Positions 11,607-57,529 of a DNA stretch of 64,000 nt are shown here, one piece after another. This DNA comes from Pararhodobacter zhoushanensis (lineage in GTDB: Bacteria > Pseudomonadota > Alphaproteobacteria > Rhodobacterales > Rhodobacteraceae): positions 62,001 to 126,000 of the forward strand of contig NZ_REEZ01000001.1 in assembly GCF_003990445.1 (NCBI RefSeq), in the 5' to 3' direction. Position 1 is the first letter of the stretch. The number at the start of each line of letters is the position of its first letter. A model generated the notes under the pieces. That model saw only the letters and a list, made by a program, of their open reading frames with translations, ran no database searches and was not told where the DNA came from. Made by a program: the position numbers and the translations under genes.

Positions 11607-11613
11607 GACTCGA

Positions 11614-12249: not shown

Positions 12250-12253
12250 GCCC

Positions 12254-36616: not shown

Positions 36617-36650
36617 CGAGGTTCCTCATTCAGCGGTTAGGGTAGCACGT

Positions 36651-41200: not shown

Positions 41201-42182
41201 CATGGGCCGCTACACCACCGATCTGGAAAAGTCCGGCGTCGAGGTGATCACCGCACCCTTCCATGCGACACCGCAAAGCTTTCTGGAACAGCGCGCGCAT
41301 GAGTTCGATCTGGTCTATATCACCCGCTACCATGTGGTGAACACGATGATCAAAACCATCCGCGAGCGTGCGCCCAACGCCAAGGTGATCATGAATGGTG
41401 CTGACCTGCACTATCTGCGGCTGTTGCGCCGGGGGTTGTCGGCGAACAACGAAGGCCACATTCAGGAAGCCCGCAGCGTGCGGATCGACGAGTTCAACGC
41501 GATGGGCAGCGTCGATCTGGTCGTCTCGTATAATGACACCGAAATGTCGATCATTCAGGCCATGTCCGAAGGGTCGATCAAGCTGAGCAAATGCCCTTGG
41601 GTACTGGACGTCCCCGACACAACCCCAGGACGCGAGGGGCGCACAGGCGTTTCCTTCCTGGGCAGTTTTGCGCATCATCCCAACGTCGAAGGGCTGACCT
41701 GGTTTGCACAGTCGGTCATGAGCCTGCTTTCTGCCAATAGGCCGGATATCGTGCTATCGGTCTATGGCTCGCGGATGGGCGATGACATGCGCAAGCTGGA
41801 GTCGCCCACAATCCGGCCAATCGGGTATATCGAAGCGATTGAGGACGCCTACGACAGCCACCGTATCTTTGTCGCGCCCTTGTTGTCGGGGGCCGGCATC
41901 AAGGGAAAAGTCCTGAACGCGCTGGCGGCGGGCATTCCCACCGTGCTCTCACCCGTCGCGGCCGAAGGGATCGGCCTGCGCGATGGCGTGGATTGCCTGA
42001 TCGCCGAGACACCGCAGGAATGGGTCGCAAAGATCACCCAGCTGACCGACGATGACCTCTTGTGGGAGAAGATCCGCAAGAACGGGATTGATCTGGCGCG
42101 GCGCAATTTCTCGTTCGAGCGCGGCCGCCGCCTGATGCGCGCTGCCTTCGAGGCAGTCGATATGTACCGCTCGCTGGACTGA
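38229..42182 (+). CDS. Large multi-domain glycosyltransferase (GT2 plus GT4)
   Basis: About 1317 residues from a GTG at 38229; an ATG at 38055 would add 58 atypical residues. Residues ~1-210 are a reduced GT-A-like domain (LRIHAAIISWDGLGAQAAG). Residues ~260-650 are a beta-rich, perhaps carbohydrate-binding section. A GT2 domain follows (~684-930) with VSVVIPAHNK, VDDGSTDE, LLNNDTEP and EDTDFAFKVRDAGY. The C-terminal ~370 residues are a GT4-like domain (LLSGAGIKGKVLNALAAGIP). It probably adds two or more sugars to a surface polysaccharide on the cytoplasmic side. It opens the glycan region. Confidence 0.85.
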   Translation: MTATLRIHAAIISWDGLGAQAAGIADALDGVVDKLSVIYSNASNRRETGAGDWHRVSHDWYFGLKFEQSIILNPAEHALLVIHADAAYHDWPALVARLRLALETNEDLGLWAPDLDNTPWPSTLVGEGSVGDTGLLSVEQTDGVVLALTPPVLARLHNLDFHENKFGWGIDWAAISYCRTQGLSVLRDTTVKIEHAPGRGYDDELAEYGADLFIAQLTDDERLWLTEARARLAQRRDDAAQTAGEGDSGPAPSDEPRLRPRVFFETPPAGSQHLSNPVEISGFALMDGRVYVCSNSDLEGKAVHIDANGVAYELERQSSVALRDLPPVNFPIQADPNGWPTQKDGLDEWQVDGWTTYRIGASGIADNRRIPLTGTLRLTAPGETFRFDAKLALHRGAGHLGLVIADAQGKTTRLLKIPYDARFEGGSQPGGYQSVSIDFPAERGETHISLYLEREPFVDHVGDGTVFFIAEPRVSVVGSVGSRLHPYVYFLNDVANPIWHVSTLPLSARDAGSAVSLIIDAQKFELIAPSPIDVKLTADWGHVLEFSSNTLFRSAIYIDGTFALCTDLAQGENSVRIPGQFLNGTHRKIELRDEMGVQTLWHSWFLAPKQLTTVDHLRRESRAPYQPDLFVQSPQRFRGLRAHCEAGASGKVLQQLTQAIDALEAGYAALKIKPLSFPKVSNPDVSVVIPAHNKVEVTYACLCALLLAHNKASFEVIVVDDGSTDETAQLESIVSGITVIHNTAPKRFIGACNAGAAAAKGTYVVLLNNDTEPTVGWLDELIDGFARFKNVGLVGSKLLYPDGRLQDAGGIIWGTGDPWNYGRLQNPADPRFSYARQADYLSGASMMTTKAIWDEVGGLSSYLEPMYFEDTDFAFKVRDAGYTTWYVPASEVYHYEGMSSGTDPSTGFKRFQDINRPKFKQRWARACAGFSPVGTAPDLEKDRGIVGRVLFIDYTTPSPDRDAGSYAALQEIRLVQSLGYKVTFMPENLAYMGRYTTDLEKSGVEVITAPFHATPQSFLEQRAHEFDLVYITRYHVVNTMIKTIRERAPNAKVIMNGADLHYLRLLRRGLSANNEGHIQEARSVRIDEFNAMGSVDLVVSYNDTEMSIIQAMSEGSIKLSKCPWVLDVPDTTPGREGRTGVSFLGSFAHHPNVEGLTWFAQSVMSLLSANRPDIVLSVYGSRMGDDMRKLESPTIRPIGYIEAIEDAYDSHRIFVAPLLSGAGIKGKVLNALAAGIPTVLSPVAAEGIGLRDGVDCLIAETPQEWVAKITQLTDDDLLWEKIRKNGIDLARRNFSFERGRRLMRAAFEAVDMYRSLD

Positions 42183-42200
42183 AGGCGGGTTCGCCTTTCT
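42182..42200 (+). terminator. Weak terminator-like hairpin after the glycosyltransferase
   Basis: AAGGCG (42182-42187) pairs with CGCCTT (42192-42197) around GGTT, followed by TCT. The stem is short (6 bp), starting at the last base of the stop codon. Confidence 0.4.
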
Positions 42201-42326
42201 CGGGCCTGCTGTCAGGGAACTGATCGCGGGCCCGTGCGGCTCGGTGACCATCGTGCTGGCACCGGTTGCGGCACTGGCCATCAGGGGTGATCACTGATGC
42301 AAGGGACGCCAAACGCCCCGATCACC

Positions 42327-43895
42327 TTATCCCGGGGGGCCATAGAACCGTGACCGGTTCTTCAGGTTCTCGGCCCCTCCACCCTGCACCAGCAGCTTTT
42401 GCCCGACACACCAGCCGGACACAGCGAGGATACGCTCGACCGCATGCGCAAGCGTGCCGTCGAGCTGACCTTCTTCGCGCTCAAAATCCTCGACCTGCAG
42501 ACCCAGCGACATCAGGGGCGCCAGCGCCGACACGCGGGCCAGCAGCATGGTTCCCGCCACGAAATGCCCCTGCAACCGGCACCTGTCCAGCCGCAACCCG
42601 AGCCGCTGAAGCAACCTGCCGACCTGCGCGTCATTGGGGCCGATGAAATCCCCGACCGGCAGCACATGGCCGGAAGGCCCGACAAACCCGATATCGGGCG
42701 CGCTCATCAGCGCAGTGATCGCAGCCTCAAGGCTGTCGGGACTGGTGAGCGCGTCAAACAAATGTGTGGCCCAATGAACGCCATCCAGTCGGTGGGTGGA
42801 TTTCTTGGTGTGCAGCTTGAGCACAAACGGATGCCCATCCTCGACGATCCGCGGCAGGACGTTCAGGAACGGCGCGACATCGCGCCCCCGGTTTTCGACG
42901 ACAGACAGCGCATAGGGCAAACCGGTCGCGTCGAGACGCGCGCGCACCGTGCCTTCCAGCGCGGCAGAGGTGGTGACATACAGCGCCATCGGCCAGTCAG
43001 ATCGCGCCAGACGCAGCAGGATCGCTTCCGAGACATCAAGGTAAAAGATATGCAGCGCGACGGCCAGCGTGGGCCGGGTCTGCGCGCCACCCGCTGCGTC
43101 ACCGGACTGCGCTGTGACCTGAAAAAAGCGGCGGTCTGATGGCAGGCTGTGACGGTCAGCATCGACCAGCATCGCGCTGCCTGCCAGACCGCTGCCCAAG
43201 AAAGGCGCCAACTGGGGGAAGCCGGCAATCCGTCCTTGCCACAGAAAATGCGCGAAAGGCTGCAAGGGCAACGGTCCGGTGAGCGCCGCGTCTTCGGCCC
43301 AGACATGGGCATTGAAGCTGGCCGATGGCCAATCCCCGCGCGCATCACCGAGCGAGGCATAGTGCAGGATCGCGTCCCAGTCGCTGCCGACACAATCGCC
43401 GTACTGGCGGCGCAGGAAATGCGGGTCGATCCATGCCGCGCTGCTCGCATCAAGCTGCTGGTCGCACAACTGGGCCAAGGCGCGCCGGGGATCGGCCGAC
43501 AGCCACGGGCTGAGGGCCACGACACCGTCGCCAATCAATGCAAACAATCCGGCGGCAGTGCGCATTTCAGCAGCAAGGTCAGGACGGAGCGCCAGCGCGA
43601 AATCGAGGCGGACCAGCGGATGCGGCCATTTGCGCGCCAACGGACCCGCCGTCAGAAAATCCTCCAACTGCTCCATGGCTCCGGTCACGCCATAGAGCCG
43701 CGCGTAATGCTCGGGCTCGATCAGCGGAAACAGCAGGGCCCGCCGGTCTGCCGGCACTTGCGGGAAAAGGTCGATGAATTCATCGACATAGTAAATCGGC
43801 GCGCCGACAGCGCGCTGCGCTGCCTGCGGCGCTATCAGCCCGCAGGCAAGCCAGGCTTCAAGTGCCGCGCGGTGCGGTTTCGCCAGTTCGGTCAC
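42327..43895 (-). CDS. RgpF (rhamnan synthesis F)-domain glycan protein
   Basis: A 522-residue protein. The C-terminal ~250 residues match the RgpF family: ALYVTTSAALEG, VVENRGRDVAPFLNVLPRI, FVLKLHTKKSTHR and PDIGFVGPSGHVLP. RgpF-like proteins act in polysaccharide (rhamnan) assembly, probably as glycosyltransferases. The N-terminal half has degenerate YPDV-like modules (DPHFLRRQYGDCVGSDWDAI). The GTG start overlaps the stop of the repeat protein (GTGA at 43892-43895). Last gene of a leftward four-gene operon. Confidence 0.82.
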   Translation of the reverse strand: MTELAKPHRAALEAWLACGLIAPQAAQRAVGAPIYYVDEFIDLFPQVPADRRALLFPLIEPEHYARLYGVTGAMEQLEDFLTAGPLARKWPHPLVRLDFALALRPDLAAEMRTAAGLFALIGDGVVALSPWLSADPRRALAQLCDQQLDASSAAWIDPHFLRRQYGDCVGSDWDAILHYASLGDARGDWPSASFNAHVWAEDAALTGPLPLQPFAHFLWQGRIAGFPQLAPFLGSGLAGSAMLVDADRHSLPSDRRFFQVTAQSGDAAGGAQTRPTLAVALHIFYLDVSEAILLRLARSDWPMALYVTTSAALEGTVRARLDATGLPYALSVVENRGRDVAPFLNVLPRIVEDGHPFVLKLHTKKSTHRLDGVHWATHLFDALTSPDSLEAAITALMSAPDIGFVGPSGHVLPVGDFIGPNDAQVGRLLQRLGLRLDRCRLQGHFVAGTMLLARVSALAPLMSLGLQVEDFEREEGQLDGTLAHAVERILAVSGWCVGQKLLVQGGGAENLKNRSRFYGPPG

Positions 43896-44404
43896 GATGC
43901 CCCGTCGTCTACTCCGGGGGCGTCTTTCGCTGGTGCGACGTGGACCGCGTCTTCCCTGACTGCGCGCAGGATGCGACGCCAGTCGTGCACAGCTTCCGAC
44001 ACCGCCGGATTTGGCAAGCGCCATTCGCTGCGGCCAACGGCCAGATAATGCGCCAAGCCGTCCTCATAGCCGCCCTCCTGAATCGCAGCGCGTACATCGG
44101 GATAGGTGCTCAGATACCAGTCTTCGTCAAAATTGCGCGGAGTCGCCGAAAGACCAGCCAGAAATCCGGTCGCAGCAAAGTGTTCGGATGCCGACGCTAG
44201 GCCATCCCAATCCGCGCCCGTGCTCAGGCCATGTTCTTTGCGATAGGCGCGCGCATCCAGCGCGAACCCTTCGGCGATCCGCTCGAGAAGAAAGCGCAAG
44301 AACGCCCCGTCAACCACAACACGGTCGACGGTCTGCAAGCTTTCGGTCTCGCCCAGACCGAGCCGGGCTTCAATTTGCGAAATATGGGGAAGAAAATCAG
44401 TCAT
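43892..44404 (-). CDS. YPDV-repeat-containing protein
   Basis: A 170-residue soluble protein of unknown function. Residues ~105-145 hold one clear copy of the module FDEDWYLSTYPDVRAAIQEG ending in HYLAVGRSEWRLPNP, the same unit repeated in the divergent acyltransferase-fusion gene. The N-terminal ~90 residues are helical and charged. The start ATG at 44404 lies inside the end of the preceding gene (8-bp overlap). It may interact with or scaffold the glycan enzymes around it. Confidence 0.7.
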   Translation of the reverse strand: MTDFLPHISQIEARLGLGETESLQTVDRVVVDGAFLRFLLERIAEGFALDARAYRKEHGLSTGADWDGLASASEHFAATGFLAGLSATPRNFDEDWYLSTYPDVRAAIQEGGYEDGLAHYLAVGRSEWRLPNPAVSEAVHDWRRILRAVREDAVHVAPAKDAPGVDDGAS

Positions 44405-44894: not shown

Positions 44895-45884
44895 TCACGC
44901 AAGTGCCAGCGCCATCACGCGCGCCAGCTCGAGCCAGTAGCCGGCATGCAGATCGTCACGGTGGATACGATCAGACCAATCGGGGAACGGCAACACAAGC
45001 GGCTCGTGGCCATCGTGACGAAGGTCCGCATTCATCAACTCATTGTCGGCGCTAAATTTTTTGGTCAGTGAGACAATTTCCGCCCGTGTCAGCAAGGTCG
45101 TGGCGCGTCCTGCACCGAAATGCCGATCCAGAGCTTTCTGCGCCAGATCGATGACCGACTGCGGGATATTCGGCACATCCGACACCTGCCGGGCAACATA
45201 GGTTGCCAAGGGATCGGGCGACCGGTTCGAGTTCAATCCCTCCAGCCTGTCAAGCTGAGCGGCGCGAACCGGGCGCCCGGTCAACGCCAGAATCGCATCC
45301 AGAACGCCGGTCGGCGTGACCGATACAGTGTCATAGCTCAGCGGTCGCATCGCTTGTGTGCCGAAACTGCGCTTCAACGCGGCGTGAGTTGCGCGATTAT
45401 GATAGAATGCTCCCCGAAAATCGGCGTTACGGAGCGCTACGGCGACCGTATCAATGATGGGGTGGCCTGCGCGCTTTTTTATCACTTCCAGATAGGAAGC
45501 CTGCACGAAAGACACCTGATTTCGGTAAAAGCACACAACCACAACGTCGTCAAAACGCCGTGCCACCTGTGCAATCTGTGCAACAAAATCTTCCTCAGCG
45601 TTGGCGGCAACAGAGAGCAACTCGCTGCTGATGATGACCGAAGCGTCGGTTCCGGCATACTGGTCCGCCATCGCCTCCCACAGGGACAGACGCCCTTTCG
45701 GGGGAAGATAGGCAGGGGCCAGCTCGGTCAGTTTTCCGATCATGGCGTGATGTTCGACGCCGTAAAAAGGGTCCGGATACACCACACCCAACCCCGCCAG
45801 TTGCGCCCGATTGTCGTACAGAACGCGCTGAACCGACGATGTTCCGGTCTTGTGGGTCCCCACGTGGAGGATCAGACGAGACAT
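44895..45884 (-). CDS. Sulfotransferase-like protein
   Basis: A 329-residue protein beginning MSRLILHVGTHKTGTSSVQR, a PAPS 5'-phosphosulfate-binding loop of the sulfotransferase P-loop type. VVVVCFYRNQVSFVQASYLEV is the likely 3'-phosphate motif, with Arg and Ser. Such proteins sulfate sugar hydroxyls of exopolysaccharide or other small molecules. A GGAAAG site lies 8 bp upstream of ATG 45884; the frame continues upstream only as shadow. It starts the leftward operon, divergent from the repeat-acyltransferase gene. Confidence 0.8.
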   Translation of the reverse strand: MSRLILHVGTHKTGTSSVQRVLYDNRAQLAGLGVVYPDPFYGVEHHAMIGKLTELAPAYLPPKGRLSLWEAMADQYAGTDASVIISSELLSVAANAEEDFVAQIAQVARRFDDVVVVCFYRNQVSFVQASYLEVIKKRAGHPIIDTVAVALRNADFRGAFYHNRATHAALKRSFGTQAMRPLSYDTVSVTPTGVLDAILALTGRPVRAAQLDRLEGLNSNRSPDPLATYVARQVSDVPNIPQSVIDLAQKALDRHFGAGRATTLLTRAEIVSLTKKFSADNELMNADLRHDGHEPLVLPFPDWSDRIHRDDLHAGYWLELARVMALALA

Positions 45885-45997
45885 GGCAGACTTTCCATTG
45901 CGATCAGGGCTGTGGCTGATAAACCGTGATATAAAACAGGTGTCAACGTTGATGCCGGTGCTCCGCACACGATACCTGCAAGCTCTGGGGGAAACCT
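45885..45997. promoter_or_regulatory. Shared divergent promoter region of two glycan/natural-product operons
   Basis: 113 bp between the leftward sulfotransferase operon and the rightward acyltransferase/halogenase operon. It contains an AT-rich TGATATAAAAC (about 45930) suited to a -10 box. Both operons must start here, so they are probably co-regulated. Confidence 0.5.
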
Positions 45998-47956
45998 GTG
46001 GCAGCGACGAAAGAATCGGCAGCGAAAATACTGGCTGATAGCCCTTTTTTCGACGAAGCGTTTTATTTGTCGACGTATCCGGATGTGCGCGCAGCCGGTT
46101 TGGACCCCATTGAACATTACCTCGACACAGGATGGCAGGAGAACCGCGACCCCTCAGCGGAATTTTCAACCGAAGGGTATTTCAGCGCCAATCCTGATGT
46201 TGCCACCGCACAGATAAATCCCCTGGTCCACTATGTCCGGCACGGACAGGCCGAGGGACGAAAGCTGCGTCCTGACCCGCAGCCAAAGCCAAAGAAAGAC
46301 GGCGGGGTCAGCAAACTTCAACAGAATATGGCCCTTATCCGCGAACAGTTTGACGCAGAGTTTTACCTGCGGGCGAACCCGGATGTCGCCGCGTCGGGTA
46401 TGGATCCACTGCTGCATTATTGTCAGCACGGCTGGATCGAAGCGCGCGATCCCAGTCCGCGTTTCTCCGCCACCGCCTATTTCCGTCGCCACCCGGATCT
46501 GGCAAACACGCGCGTCAACCCGCTCGTCCATTTCGTTACTGCGGGCGGCAACCTCGCGGTCGAGACAGTTTTGCCGCGCACCCGCCATACCGCCAACCGT
46601 GCGCCCGGACTCGCCGAGAACGTCCTTGCAACCGGCCTTCATCCGAACCAGTTGGGAGCCCTGATCAGCCCCTATTTCGACGCCGAACATTACCGCGCGC
46701 AATTGTCCGATGACGCCAATGTCTACGACCTGCTTGATCACTTTGTCACCGATGGTGAAGCCGCTGGGCTGGACCCTCACCCGGGGTTTTCAACCCGCTT
46801 CTACCGTGCATCGAACCCGGACGTCAGCGAGGCCGTCTTGAACACGTTCGCCCATTTCATTTTGCTCGGGCATCAGGAAGGCCGCCTGCCGCACCCGAAA
46901 CTTTCGACGCTCGATCCCGCTACCGGCTTCTTTGACACACAACCCCATCCTGCGACCAAGCGTAAACCCCTTGCGGAGCAGCTCAAACCAAATTCCGAAG
47001 CAGAAATTTCGCGGTTGTCCAGCATCAACCAAAATCAGGGATTGTTCATGAAGCATGGTTTAACGCGACACGAAATCGGCGACATCATGACCCAGCCCAT
47101 GGACGTGGTTTTGTCAACGATCCGCGAAAAAACCCACGCTGCGCCCACCGTTCAGGCAACAAAGGGCATGTTGCAAGCTGACATGCCGCTCTTTCACCGC
47201 TTGCTCCCAGAGATCGCGCCGAAGGCAGACGTATCGCCGCAACACGCCGCTTTCTGCCAGACCCTGACAAGCGAGATGTTTCAGCTATGGTACGCCTTGC
47301 GGATCGGCGCTTTGCCCGACCCGGTCTTTGGGCAGCATGTCGACGTGCAGGGGCTGGATCTTGTGCGCGATGCCCTGGACAGCGGCGCGCGGATCGTCAT
47401 GGTCAATGCCCACGTGGGACATGCCTGGTCCATCGTCCAGACATTGCTGCGGGCCTCGCTCCGCGTCTTGACTGTCGCTGTCACGCGCGGCTTTCCCAAT
47501 CTCGTGCTTCTGAAGCACCCCGACCTGGAGATTGCAGCGCTCGCGGATAGACTTGCCGCCGGTGTGACCATTCAGGCAGCGCGGTTTCTCAAGAAACCCG
47601 GGATCGTCAATATCCTGCCGGATGCCCAGACAAACTCCGGTCCGAAGCGTCGCTTTCTGACCCGCGAATGCATGATTTCAGACGGGTTTGCCCATCTGGC
47701 CTATACCCATGCAGACACCCTGATCACGGCCTACAGCAGCGTGGATGAAAGCGGCAAACTGATCATCCGCTTTGGTAAGGAACTGGGCGACATCCCCAAA
47801 GAGCTTGATCGCAAAGAGGCTGTCTCGACGATGGTTCAGCGCTATACCACCTATCTTGAAGACTGGTGGCGCCGGGAACCAGAGATGATCCAACTGGGCA
47901 ACCTGATCCCGTTCTCAAACGCTCCGCGCCACACACCGCCACAAGGAATGGCCTGA
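45998..47956 (+). CDS. YPDV-repeat protein fused to an LpxL-like acyltransferase domain
   Basis: 652 residues from a GTG with a GGGGG site 6-7 bp upstream. Residues ~17-300 contain six copies, in three pairs, of a ~37-residue unit (FDxxFYLxxxPDVxxxxxDPLxHYxxxGxxExRxP). After a linker, residues ~390-600 resemble lysophospholipid acyltransferases of the LpxL/HtrB type: GARIVMVNAHVGHAW with the candidate catalytic His 472, an AVTRGFPN segment, then RFLKKPGIVNILPDAQTN and HADTLITAYS. No membrane helix is obvious. LpxL enzymes use acyl-ACP, and a carrier-protein gene lies downstream. The acceptor is unknown. Confidence 0.75.
   Translation: MAATKESAAKILADSPFFDEAFYLSTYPDVRAAGLDPIEHYLDTGWQENRDPSAEFSTEGYFSANPDVATAQINPLVHYVRHGQAEGRKLRPDPQPKPKKDGGVSKLQQNMALIREQFDAEFYLRANPDVAASGMDPLLHYCQHGWIEARDPSPRFSATAYFRRHPDLANTRVNPLVHFVTAGGNLAVETVLPRTRHTANRAPGLAENVLATGLHPNQLGALISPYFDAEHYRAQLSDDANVYDLLDHFVTDGEAAGLDPHPGFSTRFYRASNPDVSEAVLNTFAHFILLGHQEGRLPHPKLSTLDPATGFFDTQPHPATKRKPLAEQLKPNSEAEISRLSSINQNQGLFMKHGLTRHEIGDIMTQPMDVVLSTIREKTHAAPTVQATKGMLQADMPLFHRLLPEIAPKADVSPQHAAFCQTLTSEMFQLWYALRIGALPDPVFGQHVDVQGLDLVRDALDSGARIVMVNAHVGHAWSIVQTLLRASLRVLTVAVTRGFPNLVLLKHPDLEIAALADRLAAGVTIQAARFLKKPGIVNILPDAQTNSGPKRRFLTRECMISDGFAHLAYTHADTLITAYSSVDESGKLIIRFGKELGDIPKELDRKEAVSTMVQRYTTYLEDWWRREPEMIQLGNLIPFSNAPRHTPPQGMA
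46046..46897 (+). repeat. Six-copy YPDV protein repeat
   Basis: Codons ~17-300 of the acyltransferase-fusion gene encode three pairs of a ~37-residue unit, with cores YPDV (27-30), NPDV (65-68), NPDV (127-130), HPDL (165-168), a degenerate copy (~235) and NPDV (273-276). Each unit ends in an HY/HF-x(4)-G pattern. Related units occur in the genes at 43892-44404 and 42327-43895. Confidence 0.8.
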
Positions 47957-47958: not shown

Positions 47959-49086
47959 ATGGATTTCGGCCAGACACCCGCACAGAGCGACGCCGTGGCA
48001 CATGCGCGCGCGCAGGCGCTGGCCTTCGATGCCGCGCTGCGCCCGGCCGAACGGGCCTTCTGGCAAGCGGCCGGGGAAAACGGTTGGGTGGGGTACTGCC
48101 TGCCCACAGCGGCAGGCGGCGCGGGTTTCGACGCGCTCACCACGGTTCTGGTGGTCGAGGCGCTGGGGCGCGCCGGTGTGTCACGCTCGGCGCTGTTCGC
48201 CATGGGTGCGCATCTGTTCGGCTGTGCGATGGTCGTGGCCAATCACGCCAGTGCGGTGGATCAGCAGCACTGGTTGCCCCGGCTTGCGCGGGGCGACGCG
48301 GTCGGGGCACTGGCCTTGACCGAGCCCGAGGGCGGCTCTGACCTTGCCGATCTGGACTGCACGATCACCGAGGATGGAGACACGCTGATCCTGAACGGCG
48401 TCAAGACGCTGGTCTCGAACGCACCGATGGCCGATCTCTTCATCGTCAGCGCGCGCCAGACAGGTCCGCGCTCGGCCCTCAACAATGCCGCGCTCTGCGT
48501 GCCCCGCGACACGCCCGGCGTATCGGTAGCGCCGGTAACCGGATCTCTGGGCCTGCGCGACGCGCCGATGGGGCGCGTCACCTTCGATGCTGTGCGCCTT
48601 CCTCCGACCGCGTATCTGGGGGGAAAAGGGCGCGCCCTGCCCGTCATCCTGTCCGCCATGCAATGGGAGCGCAGCTGTATTCTGGCCGGGTTTCTGGGCG
48701 CCGCCGACCGCGATCTGGTCGCGGTCACCGGCCATCTGGCAGCCCGACGTGATTCAAAGGGCAGCGTTCTGGGGCATCAGGCAGTTCTGCACAGCCTCGC
48801 CGAGGTTCGCGCGTCGCTGGAAAGCGCGCGATGGACGCTCTACCGCAGCGCCTCGGCGCTTGATCAGGGGGAAGACCCGATCTTCCACCCGGCCGCGAGC
48901 AAGCTGGTGGTCAGCCGTGCCATCGTCTCGGCCGCGCGCACGCTGCAAGAGGTGATGGCCGGGGCTGGTTGGCTGGACACGCTGGGGATCGCCTCGAGTC
49001 TTGCCGATGTCATGGGCACGCTCAGCGCCTCGGGTTCGACCTTTGTGCAGCTCAATGCCATCGGCGCGAGGCTGACGCGCAAATGA
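47959..49086 (+). CDS. Acyl-CoA dehydrogenase family protein (PltE/Bmp3-like)
   Basis: A 375-residue flavoprotein of the acyl-CoA dehydrogenase fold: N-terminal helical domain, the flavin/substrate signature ALTEPEGGSDLADLDC and a C-terminal helical bundle ending GTLSASGSTFVQLNAIGARL. Next to a stand-alone adenylating ligase, a carrier protein and a halogenase, it most resembles the prolyl-S-carrier oxidases (PltE, RedW, Bmp3) that turn prolyl thioester into pyrrolyl thioester. That role is inferred from context. The ATG is 2 bp after the acyltransferase stop, and its own stop overlaps the ligase start. Confidence 0.75.
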   Translation: MDFGQTPAQSDAVAHARAQALAFDAALRPAERAFWQAAGENGWVGYCLPTAAGGAGFDALTTVLVVEALGRAGVSRSALFAMGAHLFGCAMVVANHASAVDQQHWLPRLARGDAVGALALTEPEGGSDLADLDCTITEDGDTLILNGVKTLVSNAPMADLFIVSARQTGPRSALNNAALCVPRDTPGVSVAPVTGSLGLRDAPMGRVTFDAVRLPPTAYLGGKGRALPVILSAMQWERSCILAGFLGAADRDLVAVTGHLAARRDSKGSVLGHQAVLHSLAEVRASLESARWTLYRSASALDQGEDPIFHPAASKLVVSRAIVSAARTLQEVMAGAGWLDTLGIASSLADVMGTLSASGSTFVQLNAIGARLTRK

Positions 49087-50600
49087 CCCCGGACGAGACC
49101 TGCATCGGGCAGTATCTGCAGCGCCAACCGGACCCCGCCACCACGGCGCTCAGCTGGACAGGCGGTCAGATCGACCAGAGCGCCTTGCATGACAAGGTTA
49201 CCGGGCTTGCCAGCTGGCTGTCCGACGCCGGGCTGACACACGGTGACCGGGTTGCGGTGCTGTTGCCCAAAGGCCCGACCGCAGCCGCCGCGCTGCTGGC
49301 CTGTCTGGCCGCCGGTGTCATCGCTGTCCCGTGTGACTTTCACGCCCCGGCGGCACGGACGACCGACCTGCTGAACGATCTCACCCCCGCTCTGGTGATC
49401 ACCACAGACGAGCGCCGCGCCGATCTGCCCCGGACCTTCCGCCTGATCGCCGTCACGCCAGACGATCCCGCCACCCTGCCCCACAGCACCCGGCCCCTCG
49501 GGTGCTTTGACCGGCCCGTCGACACGGCGGCGCTTATCCTGCCGACATCGGGATCGACCGGCACGCCCAAAGGCGTCGTGCTGTCCTATCGCAATGTGAC
49601 GACCTTCCTGCACTGGGCGGTCGAGCATTTCGCCCTGACCCGCGCCGACCGGTTTCTCAGCATCGCGCCGTTTCATTTTGACCTCGCGACGCTGGATCTG
49701 CTGGGAAGCCAGATGATCGGCGCGTCGGTGCACCTGCTCGGCGAGGTCGAAACCCGCTTTCCCGGCGCCATTGCCAAAGCCCTGCACGAAAAGCGCATCA
49801 CGATTGCCTATACCGTGCCCACCGTCCTGACCATGATGACCACGCTGAAGGCCTTCAGCGGTGGCGTCGGCGCGGATCTGCGCTGGCTGCTCTCGGCCGG
49901 AGAAGTCTTGCCGACCGCGCTGCTGACCAGCCTGAAAGCAGCATTGCCCGACACAAGGATCGCCAATCTCTACGGCCCGACAGAAACCAATGTCATCAGT
50001 TGCCACATCGCCGGAACCGTTGACCCAAGCCTGCCGACAACGCCCATCGGCCTGCCCTGTGCGCACAGCCAAATCACCATCTGCGATCCCGACGGCGTCG
50101 CACTGCCCGGCGGAACCGAGGGCGAGATCTGTGTTCACGGACCCAGCGTCATGCTGGGCTACTGGAACCGGCCTCAGGCCACGCAAGACGCGCGCGTCGC
50201 TGGCGCAGATGAGAGCTATCGCACCGGGGATTTCGGGCGCTTTGCCGCCGATGGCAGCCTTACATTTCTGGGGCGACGCGACCAACAGGTGAAGATCCGC
50301 GGCCACCGTCTGGAACTGACCGAGGTCGAGGCGAAAGCCCTCGCCACCGGGCTGGTGCAAGCAGCCTGCGCCGTGCTGATCGAAACGGATCCGCAGAGGC
50401 CCAAGCTTGTGCTCTGCGCGATCCTCCGTGATGACACCATCAGCCCAAAGGCGATAAAAGCCAGCCTGACGAAGCATTTGCCGCGACACGCCCTGCCGGA
50501 TACCATTTTTATCGTCCCTAGCTTTCGGTTCACATCTTCCGGCAAGATAGACCGCAATGCGATACGCCAACTTGCCACAGACCACCTTCAACGGGATTAA
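49083..50600 (+). CDS. Stand-alone amino-acid adenylating ligase, prolyl-AMP-ligase-like
   Basis: A 505-residue ANL-family enzyme that loads an acyl-adenylate onto a carrier protein. Core motifs are complete: LPTSGSTGTPKGVV (A3), NLYGPTETN (A5), YRTGDFGRFAADG (A7), QVKIRGHRLELTEVEA (A8) and SSGKIDRNAIR with the catalytic Lys (A10). The stretch HWAVEHF...FHFDLATLDLL is typical of prolyl-adenylating enzymes of the PltF/RedM/Bmp4 group, though D-alanine-type ligases share some of it. Proline as substrate is therefore likely but unproven. Its ATG overlaps the dehydrogenase stop. Confidence 0.78.
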   Translation: MTPDETCIGQYLQRQPDPATTALSWTGGQIDQSALHDKVTGLASWLSDAGLTHGDRVAVLLPKGPTAAAALLACLAAGVIAVPCDFHAPAARTTDLLNDLTPALVITTDERRADLPRTFRLIAVTPDDPATLPHSTRPLGCFDRPVDTAALILPTSGSTGTPKGVVLSYRNVTTFLHWAVEHFALTRADRFLSIAPFHFDLATLDLLGSQMIGASVHLLGEVETRFPGAIAKALHEKRITIAYTVPTVLTMMTTLKAFSGGVGADLRWLLSAGEVLPTALLTSLKAALPDTRIANLYGPTETNVISCHIAGTVDPSLPTTPIGLPCAHSQITICDPDGVALPGGTEGEICVHGPSVMLGYWNRPQATQDARVAGADESYRTGDFGRFAADGSLTFLGRRDQQVKIRGHRLELTEVEAKALATGLVQAACAVLIETDPQRPKLVLCAILRDDTISPKAIKASLTKHLPRHALPDTIFIVPSFRFTSSGKIDRNAIRQLATDHLQRD

Positions 50601-50609
50601 AAAATACCT

Positions 50610-50858
50610 ATGCCTGCTGCAAACCGGGACTATCTTGCCGCTTGGCTGGCGGCCGAAACGGACCTTTCAGTCACCGAATTGACCGACACATCAGAGCTGC
50701 TGGCCAGCGGCGTTCTGGACTCGCTCAAGATCATGGATCTGACGATGGCGGTTGAGAGCGATCTGGGGATCACCATCCCGCTTGAAGACGTGATCGGCGA
50801 GAATTTTGCAACAGTCGGCAGCATTGTCCAGATGCTCGACCGCCTTCAGGCCGGATGA
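50610..50858 (+). CDS. Acyl/peptidyl carrier protein
   Basis: An 82-residue four-helix carrier protein. The phosphopantetheine attachment site is Ser38 in GVLDSLKIMDL; the following helix II and the GITIPLEDVIGENFATVGSI segment are typical. It starts 9 bp after the ligase, suggesting it is that enzyme's partner, and lies ahead of the halogenase. It is dissimilar in context to the fatty-acid acpP. No phosphopantetheinyl transferase is in the window. Confidence 0.9.
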   Translation: MPAANRDYLAAWLAAETDLSVTELTDTSELLASGVLDSLKIMDLTMAVESDLGITIPLEDVIGENFATVGSIVQMLDRLQAG

Positions 50859-50862
50859 CGCC

Positions 50863-52131
50863 GTGACCTGTGCTCGCCCCGTAAAAACGGTGGCCATCGT
50901 TGGGGCCGGTCCGGGCGGCGCAACACTTGCCGTTCGGCTGCGCCGCTTGGGCTACCGCGTGGTGCTGGTCGAGAAAGCGACGTTTCCGCGCGAACACATC
51001 GGTGAATCGCTGACCGGCGAATGCGCGATCGTGCTGCGCGAGATGGGCTTTGGCGACGCGATGGACGCCGCAGGGTTTCCTGTCAAACGCGCAGTCACCG
51101 TCCATGGCCCCAACAAACTCAACCGCTTCCGGGTTCCCGTGCAGCGGCTGGGTGAGGATGGTGTGATCATCCCCGGCCAAACCTGGCAAGTCAGACGCCC
51201 CGAGTTCGACAGCCTGTTGCTGAACGGCGCTCTTGCCGAGGGCGCAGAACTGATCCGGGCCGAGGCCCGGGGCGTCCTGCGCCGAGATGGCCGGATCAGC
51301 GGCCTGCGCCTGCGGGACGAAACCGGAGAAGACAGCGATCTGACAGCGGATTTCGTCGCCGATGCGTCGGGGTTGCAGACGTTCCTCAGCCGTTCGGGCG
51401 TGTGCGGTGCGCGACACCGGGGCGGGTACGAAAAGCAGGTCGCGTTTTACGGCCAGTTTGAAGGGGCCCGCCGCGACGCCGCTCCAGACGATGGGGCCAC
51501 CCATATCTTCTATGCCGCGCGGCACCTGTGGGCTTGGTTCATCCCGATCAGCAGCACGGTCACCAGCATCGGCGTCGTGACGCCGGGCGCGCTGTTCAAA
51601 GAATCGGGTCAGTCGGTGCAGGAATATTTGACCGAGCAGCTCGCGTCCCTTCACCCCGAGCTTTCCGAGCGCCTGCGCGAAGCGCAGCCGGTATCCGAAA
51701 CATGGTCAACGTCGAACTACTCGTATCACATCGACGATTTCGCCGGTGACGGATACCTGTGTATTGGCGATGCGCATCAATTCACCGATCCCATCTTCTC
51801 ATTTGGCGTTTCCAATTCAGTGCAGGAGGCAAGTTTGGCTGCGGGCGCCATCGACGGCTATCTGACCGCCCGGAGCGTCGACAGGATGCACCCCATTCAC
51901 ACCTACGCTGATATTGTTTCGCGGGCACAAGCGCGCGTAAAAACGCTGATCGATACGTTTTGGGAGTTCCCGCTCGCCTTTCTTAAACTCGCTCATTACG
52001 ACCGTCAGGCCGATATAGCCGAGCTGTTGTCAGGCAGGCTCTACAGCCAAAGCGCCGAAATGAATGAAGCCGGGATCATCATGCGCGATCTGCTGGCCAA
52101 AAGGCGCGTTGCAGGGGATGGGCGGGCCTGA
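50863..52131 (+). CDS. Flavin-dependent halogenase
   Basis: A 422-residue FAD protein of the halogenase/hydroxylase superfamily. FAD motif GAGPGGAT (residues 14-21) and FPREHIGESL are followed by Lys75 in FPVKRAV, the position of the catalytic Lys in carrier-dependent and phenolic halogenases. The WxWxIP signature is present as WAWFIP (223-228), and GDAHQFTDPIFSFGVS is the GD/halogenase block. These favour halogenation over hydroxylation. The GTG start is 4 bp after the carrier-protein stop, and the substrate is probably carrier-bound. A separate flavin reductase must be encoded elsewhere. Confidence 0.82.
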   Translation: MTCARPVKTVAIVGAGPGGATLAVRLRRLGYRVVLVEKATFPREHIGESLTGECAIVLREMGFGDAMDAAGFPVKRAVTVHGPNKLNRFRVPVQRLGEDGVIIPGQTWQVRRPEFDSLLLNGALAEGAELIRAEARGVLRRDGRISGLRLRDETGEDSDLTADFVADASGLQTFLSRSGVCGARHRGGYEKQVAFYGQFEGARRDAAPDDGATHIFYAARHLWAWFIPISSTVTSIGVVTPGALFKESGQSVQEYLTEQLASLHPELSERLREAQPVSETWSTSNYSYHIDDFAGDGYLCIGDAHQFTDPIFSFGVSNSVQEASLAAGAIDGYLTARSVDRMHPIHTYADIVSRAQARVKTLIDTFWEFPLAFLKLAHYDRQADIAELLSGRLYSQSAEMNEAGIIMRDLLAKRRVAGDGRA

Positions 52132-52147: not shown

Positions 52148-52852
52148 TCAGGCGGCGATCATCTCTTTCGCGGTCCTAAGCAACCTGAAATCGTCGGCGT
52201 TGGCCGAATTGAGTTGGGTGCGCAGCGCGGGACTGATCGCGTTCTTCTCTTTCGACGTGACGTTCTTGTGGGCGCTAACCCCCTGAAATTGAGGGAACAG
52301 TCCCTGCAACCGCGCATTGATCCGCGCAACGGACGTGTCAAAGTCTTCGACGATTCCCACCACCCCGGTCTGGTTCAGCATGGCCAACGCCTTGGTCGCG
52401 CGCTCGACTTCGCTTTCCGGTCCGGGGAAAAAGGCCGCCAATCGTTCCGCCTGAAAATTGCGGCATTGCCGGTCACCAAGACGCGACAGACGGGCATCAA
52501 CATAGCCACCAAGATCATGCGTGCGCGCAAGCTCGGCGCCCCAGGTTTCGGCCTGTTGCACCCGCTCAAACGCATAGGCGGATTCTATGCGCGCAATCGG
52601 ATCACGCAGAAACAGGATCGGAATGATCTGTACGCCAGGGATCTGCGGCAGCGGACCCGCGGCAGTGTGGGAGGAGAAAACGACAGCCTCCGGCGTCTCT
52701 TCAATCCACGCCTTTACCAAGCTCGTGTTATTGCCGGCCATTGCCGGAAATTCACGCGTAACCCAACGTTCACCGAAATTCGCCTGAAAGATGCTGTCGA
52801 CCGACGTGCCTGCATTCTTGAAGAGGTGGTAATGTAGGATGACTGTGCGCAA
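52148..52852 (-). CDS. Sulfotransferase family protein with TTG start
   Basis: A 234-residue protein opening RTVILHYHLFKNAGTSVDSI, the 5'-phosphosulfate-binding motif of type-2 (HS2ST-like) sulfotransferases. PILFLRDPIARIESAYAFER is the 3'-phosphate motif with Arg and Ser. No ATG or GTG lies ahead of the P-loop; the TTG at 52852 has GAAGGG eight bases upstream and is the best start. It converges on the halogenase gene (16-bp gap). Likely sulfates a glycan or metabolite of this region. Confidence 0.78.
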   Translation of the reverse strand: MRTVILHYHLFKNAGTSVDSIFQANFGERWVTREFPAMAGNNTSLVKAWIEETPEAVVFSSHTAAGPLPQIPGVQIIPILFLRDPIARIESAYAFERVQQAETWGAELARTHDLGGYVDARLSRLGDRQCRNFQAERLAAFFPGPESEVERATKALAMLNQTGVVGIVEDFDTSVARINARLQGLFPQFQGVSAHKNVTSKEKNAISPALRTQLNSANADDFRLLRTAKEMIAA

Positions 52853-53593: not shown

Positions 53594-55054
53594 ATGGTTA
53601 CAGGGTCGGTTGCACATATGGATCAGGTCACAGACACCCGGCCCGTTCTGGTCGTTGATCTGGATGGAACGCTGATCCGCTCGGATATGCTGTACGAGAC
53701 CTTCTGGTCGGCGTTCTCGCGCGATTGGCGCACGCCGATGCGGGCGGTGGCGGGCCTGTTGCACGGCAAAGCGGCGCTGAAAGCGCGGCTGGCGGCACTG
53801 GGGATGCCTGATCCTGCAACCCTGCCCTATACTCCTGAAGTTCTGGACGAAATCCGCGACTGGCGCGCATCCGGCGGGCGCACGGCGCTGGTGACGGCGG
53901 CGGATCAGTCCATCGCCGATGCGATTGCCGACCACCTCACGCTGTTTGATGAGGTGCATGGCTCGAACGGCGAAACAAATCTCAAGGGCCCGGCCAAGGC
54001 CGCCTTCTTGTGCGAACGGTTCGGCAGCGGGGCCTTCATCTACGCGGGCGACAGCACCGCCGATCTGGCGGTCTGGTCGCAAGCCTCGGGCGCGGTCACG
54101 GTCGGGGCGGACGCCAGCCTGCGCACCAAGGTCGAGGCGCTGCGGCCCGGCACCCGTCATCTGGCGCCAAGACACTCGCTGTTGCCCGCAGCGTTCCGCG
54201 CGATGCGGCCGCACCAATGGGCCAAGAATGCGCTGGTGTTTTTCCCGATGGTGGCCGCGCATGATTTCAACCTTCTGGCGCTGGGGCAGACCATTCTGGC
54301 GGTTATCGCGTTCAGCCTGATGGCCTCGTCGGTCTATCTGCTCAACGACCTGCTCGACATCGGTTCGGACCGCGCCCACCCGCGCAAGCGCAACCGACCG
54401 CTGGCCTCGGGCGCGCTGCCGCTGAAAGCGGGGATGGCAATGGTGCCGTTGCTGCTGGTGATCGGCATCGCCGTGGCGGCGCTGTTGCCGCCGATCTTCA
54501 TGCTGGTGATGGCCGGGTATTACGGCCTGACCATCGCCTATTCGCTGTGGTTCAAGCGCAAGCCGATCCTCGATATCGCGGCACTTGCCAGTCTTTACAC
54601 GATGCGCGTCGTTGCAGGCGGTGCCGCAACCGGGATCGAGCTGTCGGTCTGGCTGCTGGCGTTCTCGGCGTTTTTGTTCTTCTCGCTCGCCGCCGTCAAA
54701 CGACAGGCCGAGCTGGTCGACATGGCTCAACGGGGAGTCGATCAGGCCGCCGGTCGCGGCTACCGCGTGGGCGATCTGCCGGTGATCACGCAGATGGCCA
54801 CGGCCTCGGGGTTTGTCGCCGTGCTGGTGCTGATGCTCTATCTGAATGAGCCCGCGACGCTGACGCTTTACCACCACCCGCTGATGCTGTGGGCGGCCTG
54901 TCTGGTAATGCTGTACTGGATCGCGCGCATGGTACTGGTGGCGCAGCGCGGGCAGATGGACGATGACCCGGTGGTCTATGCCATGCGCGACCCGGCCAGC
55001 CAGCTGGTGGTGCTCATCATCGCCTGCCTCTTTGTCGGAGCGAAAGTGCTGTGA
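53594..55054 (+). CDS. HAD phosphatase fused to UbiA-type decaprenyl-phosphate phosphoribosyltransferase
   Basis: 486 residues. The N-terminal ~190 residues are a HAD phosphatase (DLDGTLIRSD; GDSTADL). The rest is a UbiA-family transferase with about eight helices and the prenyl-diphosphate motif NDLLDIGSDRAHPRKRNRPL, almost the pattern of mycobacterial DPPR synthase Rv3806c, which moves 5-phosphoribose from PRPP to decaprenyl phosphate. The HAD part would remove the 5-phosphate, a step that mycobacteria give to a separate enzyme. Downstream DprE1/DprE2 homologues support this. A later Met (53618) is an alternative start. Confidence 0.82.
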   Translation: MVTGSVAHMDQVTDTRPVLVVDLDGTLIRSDMLYETFWSAFSRDWRTPMRAVAGLLHGKAALKARLAALGMPDPATLPYTPEVLDEIRDWRASGGRTALVTAADQSIADAIADHLTLFDEVHGSNGETNLKGPAKAAFLCERFGSGAFIYAGDSTADLAVWSQASGAVTVGADASLRTKVEALRPGTRHLAPRHSLLPAAFRAMRPHQWAKNALVFFPMVAAHDFNLLALGQTILAVIAFSLMASSVYLLNDLLDIGSDRAHPRKRNRPLASGALPLKAGMAMVPLLLVIGIAVAALLPPIFMLVMAGYYGLTIAYSLWFKRKPILDIAALASLYTMRVVAGGAATGIELSVWLLAFSAFLFFSLAAVKRQAELVDMAQRGVDQAAGRGYRVGDLPVITQMATASGFVAVLVLMLYLNEPATLTLYHHPLMLWAACLVMLYWIARMVLVAQRGQMDDDPVVYAMRDPASQLVVLIIACLFVGAKVL

Positions 55055-55482
55055 GCCAGACCCCAACCGGCTGGACGCTTGTCGTCCGATACAGCGGCTT
55101 CGCCGTTGTCGCCACGCTGGCCAATCTGGGCGCGCAGCGGCTGGTCTTGCAATTGGGCGAGACGCCCGCGCTGTTCGCGCTGGCGGTGCTGGTCGGCACC
55201 GCGTTGGGGCTGGTGGTGAAATATGCGCTGGATAAGCGGTGGATCTTTCTGGACCCTGAGACGGGCGTGAAAGCCAATTCCCGCAAATTCGCGCTCTATA
55301 CGGTGATGGGGCTGGTGACGACGGCGATCTTCTGGGGCAGCGAGACGCTGTTCTGGCAGATCGGCGGCACCCATACCGCGCGCGAGATTGGCGCGGTTCT
55401 GGGGCTGGCCGTCGGCTACATGGTCAAGTATCAGCTGGACAAGCGGTTCGTTTTCACCCCCCCGCTGGCCGAGGGCGTGTGA
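55051..55482 (+). CDS. GtrA family membrane protein
   Basis: A 143-residue protein with four hydrophobic helices and the GtrA motifs KYALDKRWIF and KYQLDKRFVF, each closing a two-helix half. GtrA proteins are thought to flip polyprenyl-phosphate sugars across the inner membrane. In a DPA pathway it could flip decaprenylphosphoryl arabinose, like mycobacterial Rv3789. The GTG start overlaps the previous stop (GTGA at 55051-55054), and its own stop overlaps the DprE1 start. Confidence 0.88.
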   Translation: MSQTPTGWTLVVRYSGFAVVATLANLGAQRLVLQLGETPALFALAVLVGTALGLVVKYALDKRWIFLDPETGVKANSRKFALYTVMGLVTTAIFWGSETLFWQIGGTHTAREIGAVLGLAVGYMVKYQLDKRFVFTPPLAEGV

Positions 55483-56801
55483 TGGATCTGTCAGGCTGGG
55501 GCCGTTACCCGCATCAGGAAACCCGTCTGAGCACCCCGCGCGACGCGCAGGGCGTCGCGGCGTTGCTCGGCGATGGCCCGGTGATCGCGCGCGGGTCGGG
55601 CCGGGCGTATGGCGATCCGGCGATCGGGGCGCATGCTGTCTCGACCCGGCACCTTAACCACATGATCGCTTTCGATGACGCGACGGGTGAGCTGGTCGCG
55701 GAATCCGGCGTGACGCTGGGCGAGATCATGGACGCCTTCCTGCCGCGCGGCTGGTTTCTCAGCGTGACGCCGGGGACGAAGTTCGTCTCATTGGGCGGCG
55801 CGATTGCCGCCGATGTGCATGGCAAGAACCACCATTCCGAGGGATCTTTCGGCGTCTTCGTCGACTGGTTCGACCTGATGGGCGCCGATGGCAGCGTCAC
55901 CCGCTGCTCGCGCAACGACAACGCCGATCTGTTTCGCTGGACGCTGGGCGGCATGGGCCTGACCGGCATCATTCTGCGCGCCGCGATCCGGCTCAAGAAG
56001 GTCGAAAGCGGCTGGATCCGCCAGACCACCATCGCGACCCGCAATCTGGATGAGGCGCTGGCTGCCTTCGAGCAAACCTACGACGCAACCTACAGCATGG
56101 CGTGGATCGACTGCGCGGCGACCGGCGCGAAGATGGGCCGCTCGATCGTGATGAACGGTGAGCATGCAACGCGCGATGAACTCCCCCCCCTCGCACGCCC
56201 GCGCCCTTTGGACACCGCCCTGCACCGCAATCTGAGCGTGCCGTTCGACTTCCCCGGCTTTGCGCTGAACCCGTGGTCGATCCGCGCCTTCAACGAGCTT
56301 TACTATTTCAAGGGCAAGCGCACGCCACCGACCAGCATCGTGGGCCTCGACTCGTTCTTCTATCCGCTCGACGCGATCCGTAACTGGAACCGCATCTATG
56401 GCCGCAAGGGTTTCATGCAGTTCCAATGCGTCGTGCCGCTCGAAAGCCACGCCGAAGGGCTGCGCGCGATCCTGAACGCGATCACCCGCACCGGGGCCGG
56501 CTCGTTTCTGGCTGTCCTCAAGCGCTTTGGCCCGCAAGACAGCCGCCTGTCCTTTCCGATGGAGGGCTACACGCTCGCCCTCGATTTCCCCCTGACCCGC
56601 CGGAGCCTCGACCTGATGCCCGAACTTGACCGTATCACCGCCGATCACGGCGGGCGCTTCTATCTGGCGAAAGACAGCCGGATGAGCGCCGACACCCTGC
56701 GCCGCACCGATCCGCGCTGGCAGGCCTTCGCCGAGATGCGCCGTCAACAGGGGCTAACGCAGGCCTTCGCCTCGGCCCAAAGCGAAAGGCTGGGACTATG
56801 A
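55482..56801 (+). CDS. DprE1-like decaprenylphosphoryl-ribose 2'-oxidase
   Basis: A 439-residue VAO-family FAD enzyme that oxidises the 2'-OH of decaprenylphosphoryl ribose. It aligns along its length with M. tuberculosis DprE1: SGWGRYP, ARGSGRAYGD, VHGKNHHSEGSFG, GGMGLTGI, LKRFGPQDSRLSFPMEGYTL and FYLAKDSR with the active-site Lys397. The Cys387 targeted by benzothiazinones is Ala366 here (GYTLALDFP against GWNICVDFP). Start at ATG 55482; a GTG at 55479 is possible. Two-base-scale overlaps on both sides show tight coupling with gtrA and dprE2. Confidence 0.9.
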   Translation: MDLSGWGRYPHQETRLSTPRDAQGVAALLGDGPVIARGSGRAYGDPAIGAHAVSTRHLNHMIAFDDATGELVAESGVTLGEIMDAFLPRGWFLSVTPGTKFVSLGGAIAADVHGKNHHSEGSFGVFVDWFDLMGADGSVTRCSRNDNADLFRWTLGGMGLTGIILRAAIRLKKVESGWIRQTTIATRNLDEALAAFEQTYDATYSMAWIDCAATGAKMGRSIVMNGEHATRDELPPLARPRPLDTALHRNLSVPFDFPGFALNPWSIRAFNELYYFKGKRTPPTSIVGLDSFFYPLDAIRNWNRIYGRKGFMQFQCVVPLESHAEGLRAILNAITRTGAGSFLAVLKRFGPQDSRLSFPMEGYTLALDFPLTRRSLDLMPELDRITADHGGRFYLAKDSRMSADTLRRTDPRWQAFAEMRRQQGLTQAFASAQSERLGL

Positions 56802-57529
56802 GCAGCGTTCTGATCCTCGGTGCCCGCTCGGACATCGCCCGCGCCTGCGCGCAGCACTACGCCAGGCAAGGCTACGCCGTGCAACTCGCCGCCCGCGACG
56901 CCGCCAGCCTTGAAGCCGACGCCACCGACCTGCACCTGCGCCACGGCGTCCCGGTGACCTGCCACGCCTTTGACGTGCTCGACACCGCCAGCTTTGCCGG
57001 GTTCATCGAGGCCCTGCCCATCCTGCCCGACACGGTGATCTGCGCCGTGGGCTTCATGGGCGACCAAGCCGAAAGCGAGCGTGACCCGCAGGCCGCTGCG
57101 CTGGTGATGCGCTCGAACTATGAAGGCCCGTCGCTGATCCTCAGCCTGCTGGCCGACCGCTTTGCCGAGCGCAATTCCGGCACGCTGGTCGGCATTTCCT
57201 CGGTCGCAGGCGACCGGGGGCGCGCGTCGAATTATGTCTATGGCTCGGCCAAGGCGGGGTTCACCGCCTTCCTCAGCGGGTTGCGCAACCGTCTGTCGCG
57301 CACCAGGGTGCAGGTGATCACCGTCAAGCCGGGCTTCGTTGCGACCCGGATGACCGAGGGCATGGACCTGAACCCCCGCCTGACCGCCCAGCCCGACGAG
57401 GTGGCCCGCGCGATCTGGACCGCACAGGACAAGGGCCGCAACGTGATCTATGTGCGCGGCATCTGGCGGCTGGTGATGACCATCATCCGCCTGCTGCCCG
57501 AGGCGCTGTTCAAAAAGACCAGCCTCTGA
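56798..57529 (+). CDS. DprE2-like decaprenylphosphoryl-2-keto-pentose reductase
   Basis: A 243-residue SDR that would reduce the 2-keto intermediate to decaprenylphosphoryl arabinose. It has the atypical cofactor motif GARSDIARA (as in DprE2), the active-site region SSVAGDRGRASNYVYGSAKAG with Ser/Tyr/Lys, VKPGFVATRMT and a hydrophobic C-terminal helix (RGIWRLVMTIIRLLPEALF). The ATG overlaps the DprE1 stop. Together these two genes make the epimerase pair of the DPA route. Confidence 0.88.
   Translation: MSSVLILGARSDIARACAQHYARQGYAVQLAARDAASLEADATDLHLRHGVPVTCHAFDVLDTASFAGFIEALPILPDTVICAVGFMGDQAESERDPQAAALVMRSNYEGPSLILSLLADRFAERNSGTLVGISSVAGDRGRASNYVYGSAKAGFTAFLSGLRNRLSRTRVQVITVKPGFVATRMTEGMDLNPRLTAQPDEVARAIWTAQDKGRNVIYVRGIWRLVMTIIRLLPEALFKKTSL

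Follow-up and report, generated by a model that had tools for sequence, protein, structure and literature searches.

Pyrrolyl-carrier cassettes are known to supply antibiotics, pigments and the coral-settlement cue tetrabromopyrrole. A candidate cassette of this kind, preceded by an acyltransferase gene, was found in a stretch of 64,000 nucleotides of the Pararhodobacter zhoushanensis genome (contig NZ_REEZ01000001.1, positions 62,001 to 126,000), here called the window. Like the Bmp1-4 system for tetrabromopyrrole in Pseudoalteromonas, the window has predicted genes for a prolyl ligase, a prolyl-carrier oxidase and a pyrrole halogenase; however, its carrier protein is stand-alone, with no carrier-thioesterase fusion as in Bmp1, and an acyltransferase of the LPLAT family is present. 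The same four activities are found in the pyoluteorin pathway (PltF/E/L/A) and in other cassettes linked to polyketide synthases or nonribosomal peptide synthetases. Pyoluteorin-type cassettes feed assembly lines, whereas no ketosynthase was found in the window and its halogenase falls in the clade of Bmp2, not in that of Mpy16 and ChlB4.

Two described acyltransferase systems also bear on the locus. In clorobiocin biosynthesis (CloN3/4/5/7), as given in an excerpt of PMC11218499, a pyrrole-2-carboxyl group made on a carrier ends up on a sugar hydroxyl, a transfer in which the acyltransferase CloN7 takes part. The window resembles this system in the predicted carrier-bound pyrrole-2-carboxyl group and in its acyltransferase, CloN7 being compared by description only, whereas clorobiocin biosynthesis also involves a second carrier and a methyltransferase, and Clo-hal is assumed in the same excerpt to act on the aglycone (PMC11218499). 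VexE, as described in parts of PMC9597891, is an LPLAT enzyme without the acid of the HX4D/E motif that uses a His-Asp pair with a spacing of 66 residues (H466/D532), a pair also present in PatA, and transfers an acyl group from acyl-ACP to UDP-GlcNAc in the making of the Vi capsule glycolipid. Compared by description only, VexE and the window protein have in common the LPLAT domain, the carrier-bound donor (assumed for the window), the His-Asp pair, the absence of the acid at HX4D/E and an N-terminal repeat region; the repeats of VexE are tetratricopeptide repeats and its donors fatty acyl groups, whereas the window repeats are of a type found in glycan loci. No pyrrole-decorated glycan was found described in the open-licence literature, covered by titles and the starts of abstracts and leaving most subscription-journal papers outside.

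Here it is proposed, with evenly balanced confidence, that the five genes form an operon that converts proline to a halopyrrolyl-S-carrier, from which the LPLAT enzyme unloads the acyl group onto a sugar or lipid-linked sugar. The elements of the operon are the following:

45998..47956, + strand: acyltransferase of 652 residues, with six repeats of about 38 residues of glycan-locus type followed by a C-terminal LPLAT domain (LpxL/Lip_A_acyltrans type)
47411..47413, + strand: codon of the predicted catalytic His of the LPLAT domain, by alignment with LpxL-type proteins; the acid of HX4D/E is absent
47621..47623, + strand: codon of the predicted catalytic Asp of the LPLAT domain, 70 residues past the His, by the same alignment
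47959..49086, + strand: predicted prolyl-S-carrier oxidase (Bmp3/PltE/PigA type) with the acyl-CoA dehydrogenase fold
49083..50600, + strand: stand-alone adenylating ligase with the proline-type pocket DLLYLALVIK
50610..50858, + strand: stand-alone carrier protein of 82 residues, with Ser38 in LDSL
50863..52131, + strand: predicted flavin-dependent pyrrole halogenase of the Bmp2 clade, with a GTG start

The ligase would adenylate L-proline and load it on Ser38 of the carrier, the oxidase would turn the prolyl-S-carrier into the pyrrolyl-S-carrier, and the flavin halogenase of the Bmp2 clade would halogenate the carrier-bound pyrrole. Lastly, an acceptor made by the neighbouring glycan genes would receive the acyl group on a hydroxyl (or an amine), the transfer from the carrier thioester being catalysed by the His-Asp pair of the LPLAT domain. 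An earlier note, drawn from the sequence by a model, had read the four cassette genes at 47959..52131 as one overlapping operon. All four are present on the + strand with Pfam domains and are closely packed, but overlap is limited to the ATGA at the oxidase stop, shared by the oxidase and ligase genes, the remaining gaps being 2 (acyltransferase-oxidase), 9 (ligase-carrier) and 4 bases (carrier-halogenase). The acyltransferase gene (45998-47956) is the fifth member of this operon.

The ligase has the Pfam AMP-binding domain (8.6e-74) and an NCBIfam AA-adenyl-dom match of 321.7 bits (cutoff 317.4). Its top match among lone ligases in the PDB is the L-proline--carrier ligase 6o6e_B (1.8e-72), which we take to be PltF; ranked above it are the peptide synthetase 8xjz_C (1e-83) and gramicidin synthetase chains, the latter because two domains add up in their scores. 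Read by eye, with a list of pocket positions that we assume to be correct, the ten-letter code of the window ligase equals that of PltF (DLLYLALVCK) at nine positions. Codes read in the same way at related loci, presented below, are DLLYLALVCK on a Brasilonema octagenarum plasmid (L094), DLLYLALVFK in a Hellea metagenome-assembled genome (L006), DLLYCAFVCK at a locus of the window's own family (L007) and DLFYLALVCK at L092. The pocket comparison suggested in the earlier note therefore gave a proline-compatible pocket, and proline is the probable substrate by homology. The carrier protein has the Pfam PP-binding domain (6.1e-9) and PltL as its top PDB match (4.1e-5), and its Ser38 is invariant in an alignment of three carriers.

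For the oxidase, three Pfam Acyl-CoA_dh domains were found (E 1.7e-23 to 1.8e-16), and the NCBIfam families PigA (1.3e-68) and RedW (2.3e-67) come before the next family at 1.8e-36. The top PDB match is 6cxt_B (1.1e-60), labelled butyryl-CoA dehydrogenase in an entry that also has a carrier chain (6cxt_A) and presumably Bmp3; it is followed by 4irn, a prolyl-ACP dehydrogenase, and by 5zw0/6af6, an L-prolyl-carrier dehydrogenase. Among the best 60 of the 84 PDB matches, prolyl-carrier oxidase structures outrank acyl-CoA dehydrogenases. In a tree with 18 dehydrogenase rows from the window's own genome (17 distinct proteins, one of them entered twice), and from which L052 (internal TGA) was left out, the window oxidase forms one clade (99/97) with L006, L007, 6cxt, 4irn and 5zw0, separate from the own-genome dehydrogenases. 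The glutamate of the WER/WEK motif, which we take to be the catalytic base, is kept in all six members of this clade, with WER in the window. A role in beta-oxidation, against which the earlier note had asked for such a tree, was rejected because the tree puts the oxidase with the prolyl-carrier clade.

The halogenase has the Pfam Trp_halogenase domain (2.1e-16), and its top PDB match is 5bva (1.2e-71), identified as Bmp2 in an excerpt of PMC8407142, followed by the Bmp2 triple mutant 5bul, Mpy16 (5buk, 2.8e-41) and PltA (2.3e-36); the match to 7ctq, a peptidyl tryptophan dihydroxylase, is much poorer (E 1.5e-6). The protein keeps GxGxxG, Lys75 (numbered from the GTG start) and WxWxIP as WAWFIP. 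The three residues and motifs singled out in the earlier note, Ser38, Lys75 and WAWFIP, are all in place by carrier alignment, start-codon numbering and motif reading. In a first tree the window and L006 halogenases pair (92/92) and are joined to L007 and Bmp2 at 100/99; a second tree with four more genomes, from which 3e1t and L003 were left out, has a Bmp2-type clade of eight rows (100/100), with Mpy16, ChlB4 and 16 other halogenase-like rows outside it. The pairing of window and L006 is moderately supported in the two trees (92/92 and 90/89), both of which carry a long-branch warning where Mpy16/ChlB4 meet the window clade and include no known hydroxylase. The flavoprotein is best regarded as a pyrrole halogenase of the Bmp2 clade, its halogenating activity being predicted by homology.

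Exchange of three Bmp2 residues lowers the number of bromines added, although excerpts of the two sources differ on the final count in the mutant, one or two (PMC5577590, PMC8407142). Read by eye from motif strings with 5bul as the key, these gate residues are Y/F/A in Bmp2 (Y302/F306/A345) and L007, S/V/W in Mpy16 and ChlB4, F/F/S in L006 and F/F/I in all four genomes of family f188 (L089-L092). The window set, F/N/V, matches no enzyme compared, and the number of halogens is therefore not predictable. The halogenase is single-copy in its genome at E <= 0.001. Matches were found in 5 of 394 genomes of the family (1e-40), 11 of 385 of the class (1e-60) and 5 of 398 of the phylum (1e-65), the samples overlapping and counting the own genome each time. 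None of 13 regions with other halogenase matches in the family and class samples, three of which ended at a contig edge, had an oxidase or ligase match at E 1e-4.

The N-terminal half of the acyltransferase consists of the six repeats of about 38 residues, and related repeats were found in the adjoining glycan open reading frame at 43892-44404 (one) and in a 1752-residue protein of the same genome with WbsX, GT1 and GT2 domains, a multi-domain glycosyltransferase (two). Pfam and NCBIfam scans of the whole protein gave nothing at E 0.001. Its LPLAT domain scores 60.3 bits against a profile of 11 LpxL-type proteins (L017, a fragment, was left out), the best of 200 shuffles reaching 1.8 bits; those 11 proteins came from a search with a model of the window and L006 proteins, and the test is therefore not fully independent. 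The Hellea acyltransferase, at 38.1 bits, lies above the Pfam cutoff of 22.3 bits, and its match to the window protein has an E value of 2e-17. On these profile scores and this match, the C-terminal part is assigned to the LPLAT enzymes of the lipid-A acyltransferase type. HX4E is present in 11 of 11 LpxL-type proteins covering the stretch and lost in the window (HVGHAW) and L006 (HFGPGQ), which keep the His; the Asp is kept in both and in 12 of 12 aligned LpxL-type proteins.

The Hellea locus (family Robiginitomaculaceae) agrees with the window in all five genes and in their order. One gene beside it has weak glycosyltransferase matches, below Pfam cutoffs, and another is a clear sulfotransferase; neither has a window counterpart better than E 0.25. 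Both loci lie among glycan-type genes, which are not shared, and because the five-gene order is common to the two and the neighbours are not, the acyltransferase travels with the quartet. The operon had been said in the earlier note to begin with an acyltransferase-like protein, which is now recognized as a predicted LPLAT enzyme conserved as the fifth gene in Hellea. Three similar, secreted-looking tandem proteins adjoin the Hellea cassette (11288-13305, - strand of L006) and are tail-collar-like by eye.

The L007 operon of the window's own family is Bmp1-4-like (carrier-thioesterase, halogenase, oxidase, ligase) and has no LPLAT gene; the gene order and the F/N/V gate of the window differ from its order and Y/F/A gate. 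A search of the window's genome with the thioesterase part of L007 gave six weak matches (best E 2.9e-6) and no Bmp1-type thioesterase. On the Brasilonema plasmid the quartet has the same order as in the window and the next gene is a ketosynthase by eye. A P450 is also present there, the halogenase resembles the Mpy16 type by eye, and a 273-base coding sequence at the edge of the region matches part of the window halogenase (42% over 66 residues). The four genomes of family f188 share one order of the carrier, ligase, oxidase and halogenase genes, and each has a second halogenase gene close by. In L089 and L092, carrier and ligase are separated by a protein of 425-429 residues that contains HP(L/I)CDAKG and looks condensation-like by eye (no Pfam match in L092), and the cassettes adjoin type II polyketide genes (ketosynthase, ketoreductase, MMPL exporter, thioesterase). 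The f188 cassettes possibly belong to a halopyrrole-capped polyene pathway. As the off-loading partner changes among thioesterase, polyketide synthase, condensation-like protein and LPLAT, the quartet is a portable module.

A polyketide chain built near the window cassette was rejected, since a ketosynthase query from L092 gave no window match better than E 0.3; this agrees with the earlier note, in which no polyketide synthase was seen to follow. Plasmid searches gave 22 records with the halogenase and 26 with the oxidase, all below 60% identity, and no match with the acyltransferase. Four of the oxidase records were read: a PigD-bearing locus, two loci with genes of polyketide synthase type, and Brasilonema. 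No relative turned up in a scan of viral contigs. The scan of genome contigs used exact 8-residue patterns from one protein, by which distant copies are missed.

The glycan context claimed in the earlier note is present upstream of the operon, at 38055-44404. The neighbours of the operon are:

38055-42182, + strand: GT2+GT1 protein (Pfam)
42327-44404, - strand: RgpF-type protein and repeat-bearing N-terminal open reading frame (43892-44404) (Pfam, repeat search)
44895..45887, - strand: divergent neighbour with the P-loop GTHKTGTSS (sequence; no Pfam match)
52148..52852, - strand: converging neighbour with a weak Sulfotransfer_2 match of 18.5 bits, cutoff 22.0 (Pfam)

The RgpF-type protein and the repeat-bearing frame are in two overlapping frames and may be a split gene or two genes. 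Directly before the glycan genes are two adjacent proteins with the serine beta-lactamase fold (35036-37835, - strand). Past the cassette, at 53594-57526, there are UbiA/HAD, GtrA, FAD oxidase and SDR genes (Pfam, NCBIfam), which in our view resemble the decaprenylphosphoryl-arabinose pathway; this group is followed at 58041-59801 by an open reading frame of 586 residues with no Pfam match.

The genes at 53594-57526 are matched over nearly their whole length in five of eight congeners, and Salipiger and Cereibacter are among the plasmids with related genes, so that the host probably belongs to the Rhodobacterales. In three of these congeners neither the glycan genes nor the cassette turned up in the 19.9 kb upstream of the counterparts, where the sole matches to these genes were obtained with the oxidase and the ligase, at the 23-32% identity expected for ordinary dehydrogenases and ligases; in the other two the contigs ended after 2.0 and 3.4 kb. 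The absence from the congener sites fits an acquired glycan island. The G+C content of this island, in 2-kb steps from 38 to 54 kb, is mostly lower, with seven of eight steps at 0.585-0.648 and 0.675 at 48-50 kb, inside the cassette.

The conversion of proline to a halogenated pyrrolyl-S-carrier, which the earlier note had read from the gene set, has good support from protein families, the ligase pocket, active-site residues and phylogeny. That the flavoprotein hydroxylates instead, or is inactive, and that a non-halogenated pyrrole ester results, is very improbable. The wider family does include hydroxylases, the flavoprotein gets similar scores from two NCBIfam models, one for the monooxygenase QhpG (9e-39) and one for the halogenase CmlS (8.1e-40), without reaching the cutoff of either, and the gate residues match no compared enzyme; this reading is kept because the halogenase trees include no known hydroxylase. 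Against it stand the fall in score from Bmp2 to the next different protein and to the dihydroxylase, the Bmp2 clade in both trees, and the conserved Lys75 and WxWxIP, so that a non-halogenating hydroxylase is unlikely. The oxidase likewise lies below the NCBIfam equivalog cutoffs (PigA 231.9 of 500 bits, RedW 227.5 of 650 bits), a point that tells against its assignment.

The unloading step would follow from the family membership of the acyltransferase, its conservation in the Hellea operon and the context, and the nature of the acceptor is itself conjectural. Several points weigh against it. The window LPLAT domain is below the Pfam PF03279 cutoff (13.6 against 22.3 bits), is only 18-21% identical to that of Hellea, and was modelled by AlphaFold2 from a two-row alignment with a mean pLDDT of 36. 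LpxL, LpxM, PatA and VexE, the LPLAT enzymes described in parts of PMC9597891, take fatty acyl donors. The five-gene set with LPLAT was seen at one locus besides the window, and a repeat search found none of the glycan-locus repeats in the Hellea acyltransferase, so the repeat link to glycans holds for one locus. The sulfotransferase readings at both cassette borders (44895..45887 and 52148..52852) are weak, the former presumably sulfotransferase-like by its P-loop motif only. A free halopyrrole (or its acid) could instead be released as in Bmp1-4 by an unlinked hydrolase, the LPLAT being a fatty-acyl glycolipid enzyme that shares the operon by chance. Bmp2 and Bmp3 are indeed the nearest relatives of the halogenase and the oxidase, the same family has a Bmp1-4-like operon (L007), and the weak thioesterase matches in the genome may be generic hydrolases; but LPLAT is also the first gene of the Hellea set, even though the two other Hellea neighbours have no window counterpart, the carrier has no fused thioesterase, and the gate is F/N/V and not the Y/F/A of Bmp2, which leaves this explanation unlikely. 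Similarly improbable is that the LPLAT unloads the halopyrrole onto a lipid or amine of a diffusible small molecule, and not onto a surface glycan. LPLAT enzymes have various acceptors, according to excerpts of PMC9597891, and in f188 the quartet stands with another protein, beside polyketide genes in the two loci read, showing that the off-loading partner varies. Opposed to this are the glycan-locus repeats fused to the LPLAT domain and the glycan neighbourhood in the window, as well as the glycosyltransferase-like gene and the sulfotransferase beside the Hellea cassette.

The replacement of the usual release or extension gene of pyrrole cassettes by an LPLAT gene among polysaccharide genes points to a possible attachment of halopyrroles to a sugar or lipid of the cell surface. 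The broader claim, that bacteria attach proline-derived halopyrroles to a surface polysaccharide or glycolipid via an LPLAT enzyme as a halogenated aromatic glycan decoration, is offered tentatively, as a possibility falling somewhat short of an even chance. A pyrrole cassette would seemingly have been plugged into glycan assembly by exchange of the off-loading enzyme. If this is true, halogenated heteroaromatics would serve to decorate cell surfaces and not solely as diffusible metabolites, an acyltransferase would move heteroaromatic groups from carrier to sugar, and adhesion, the chemistry of biofilms and encounters with phages or predators would be affected.

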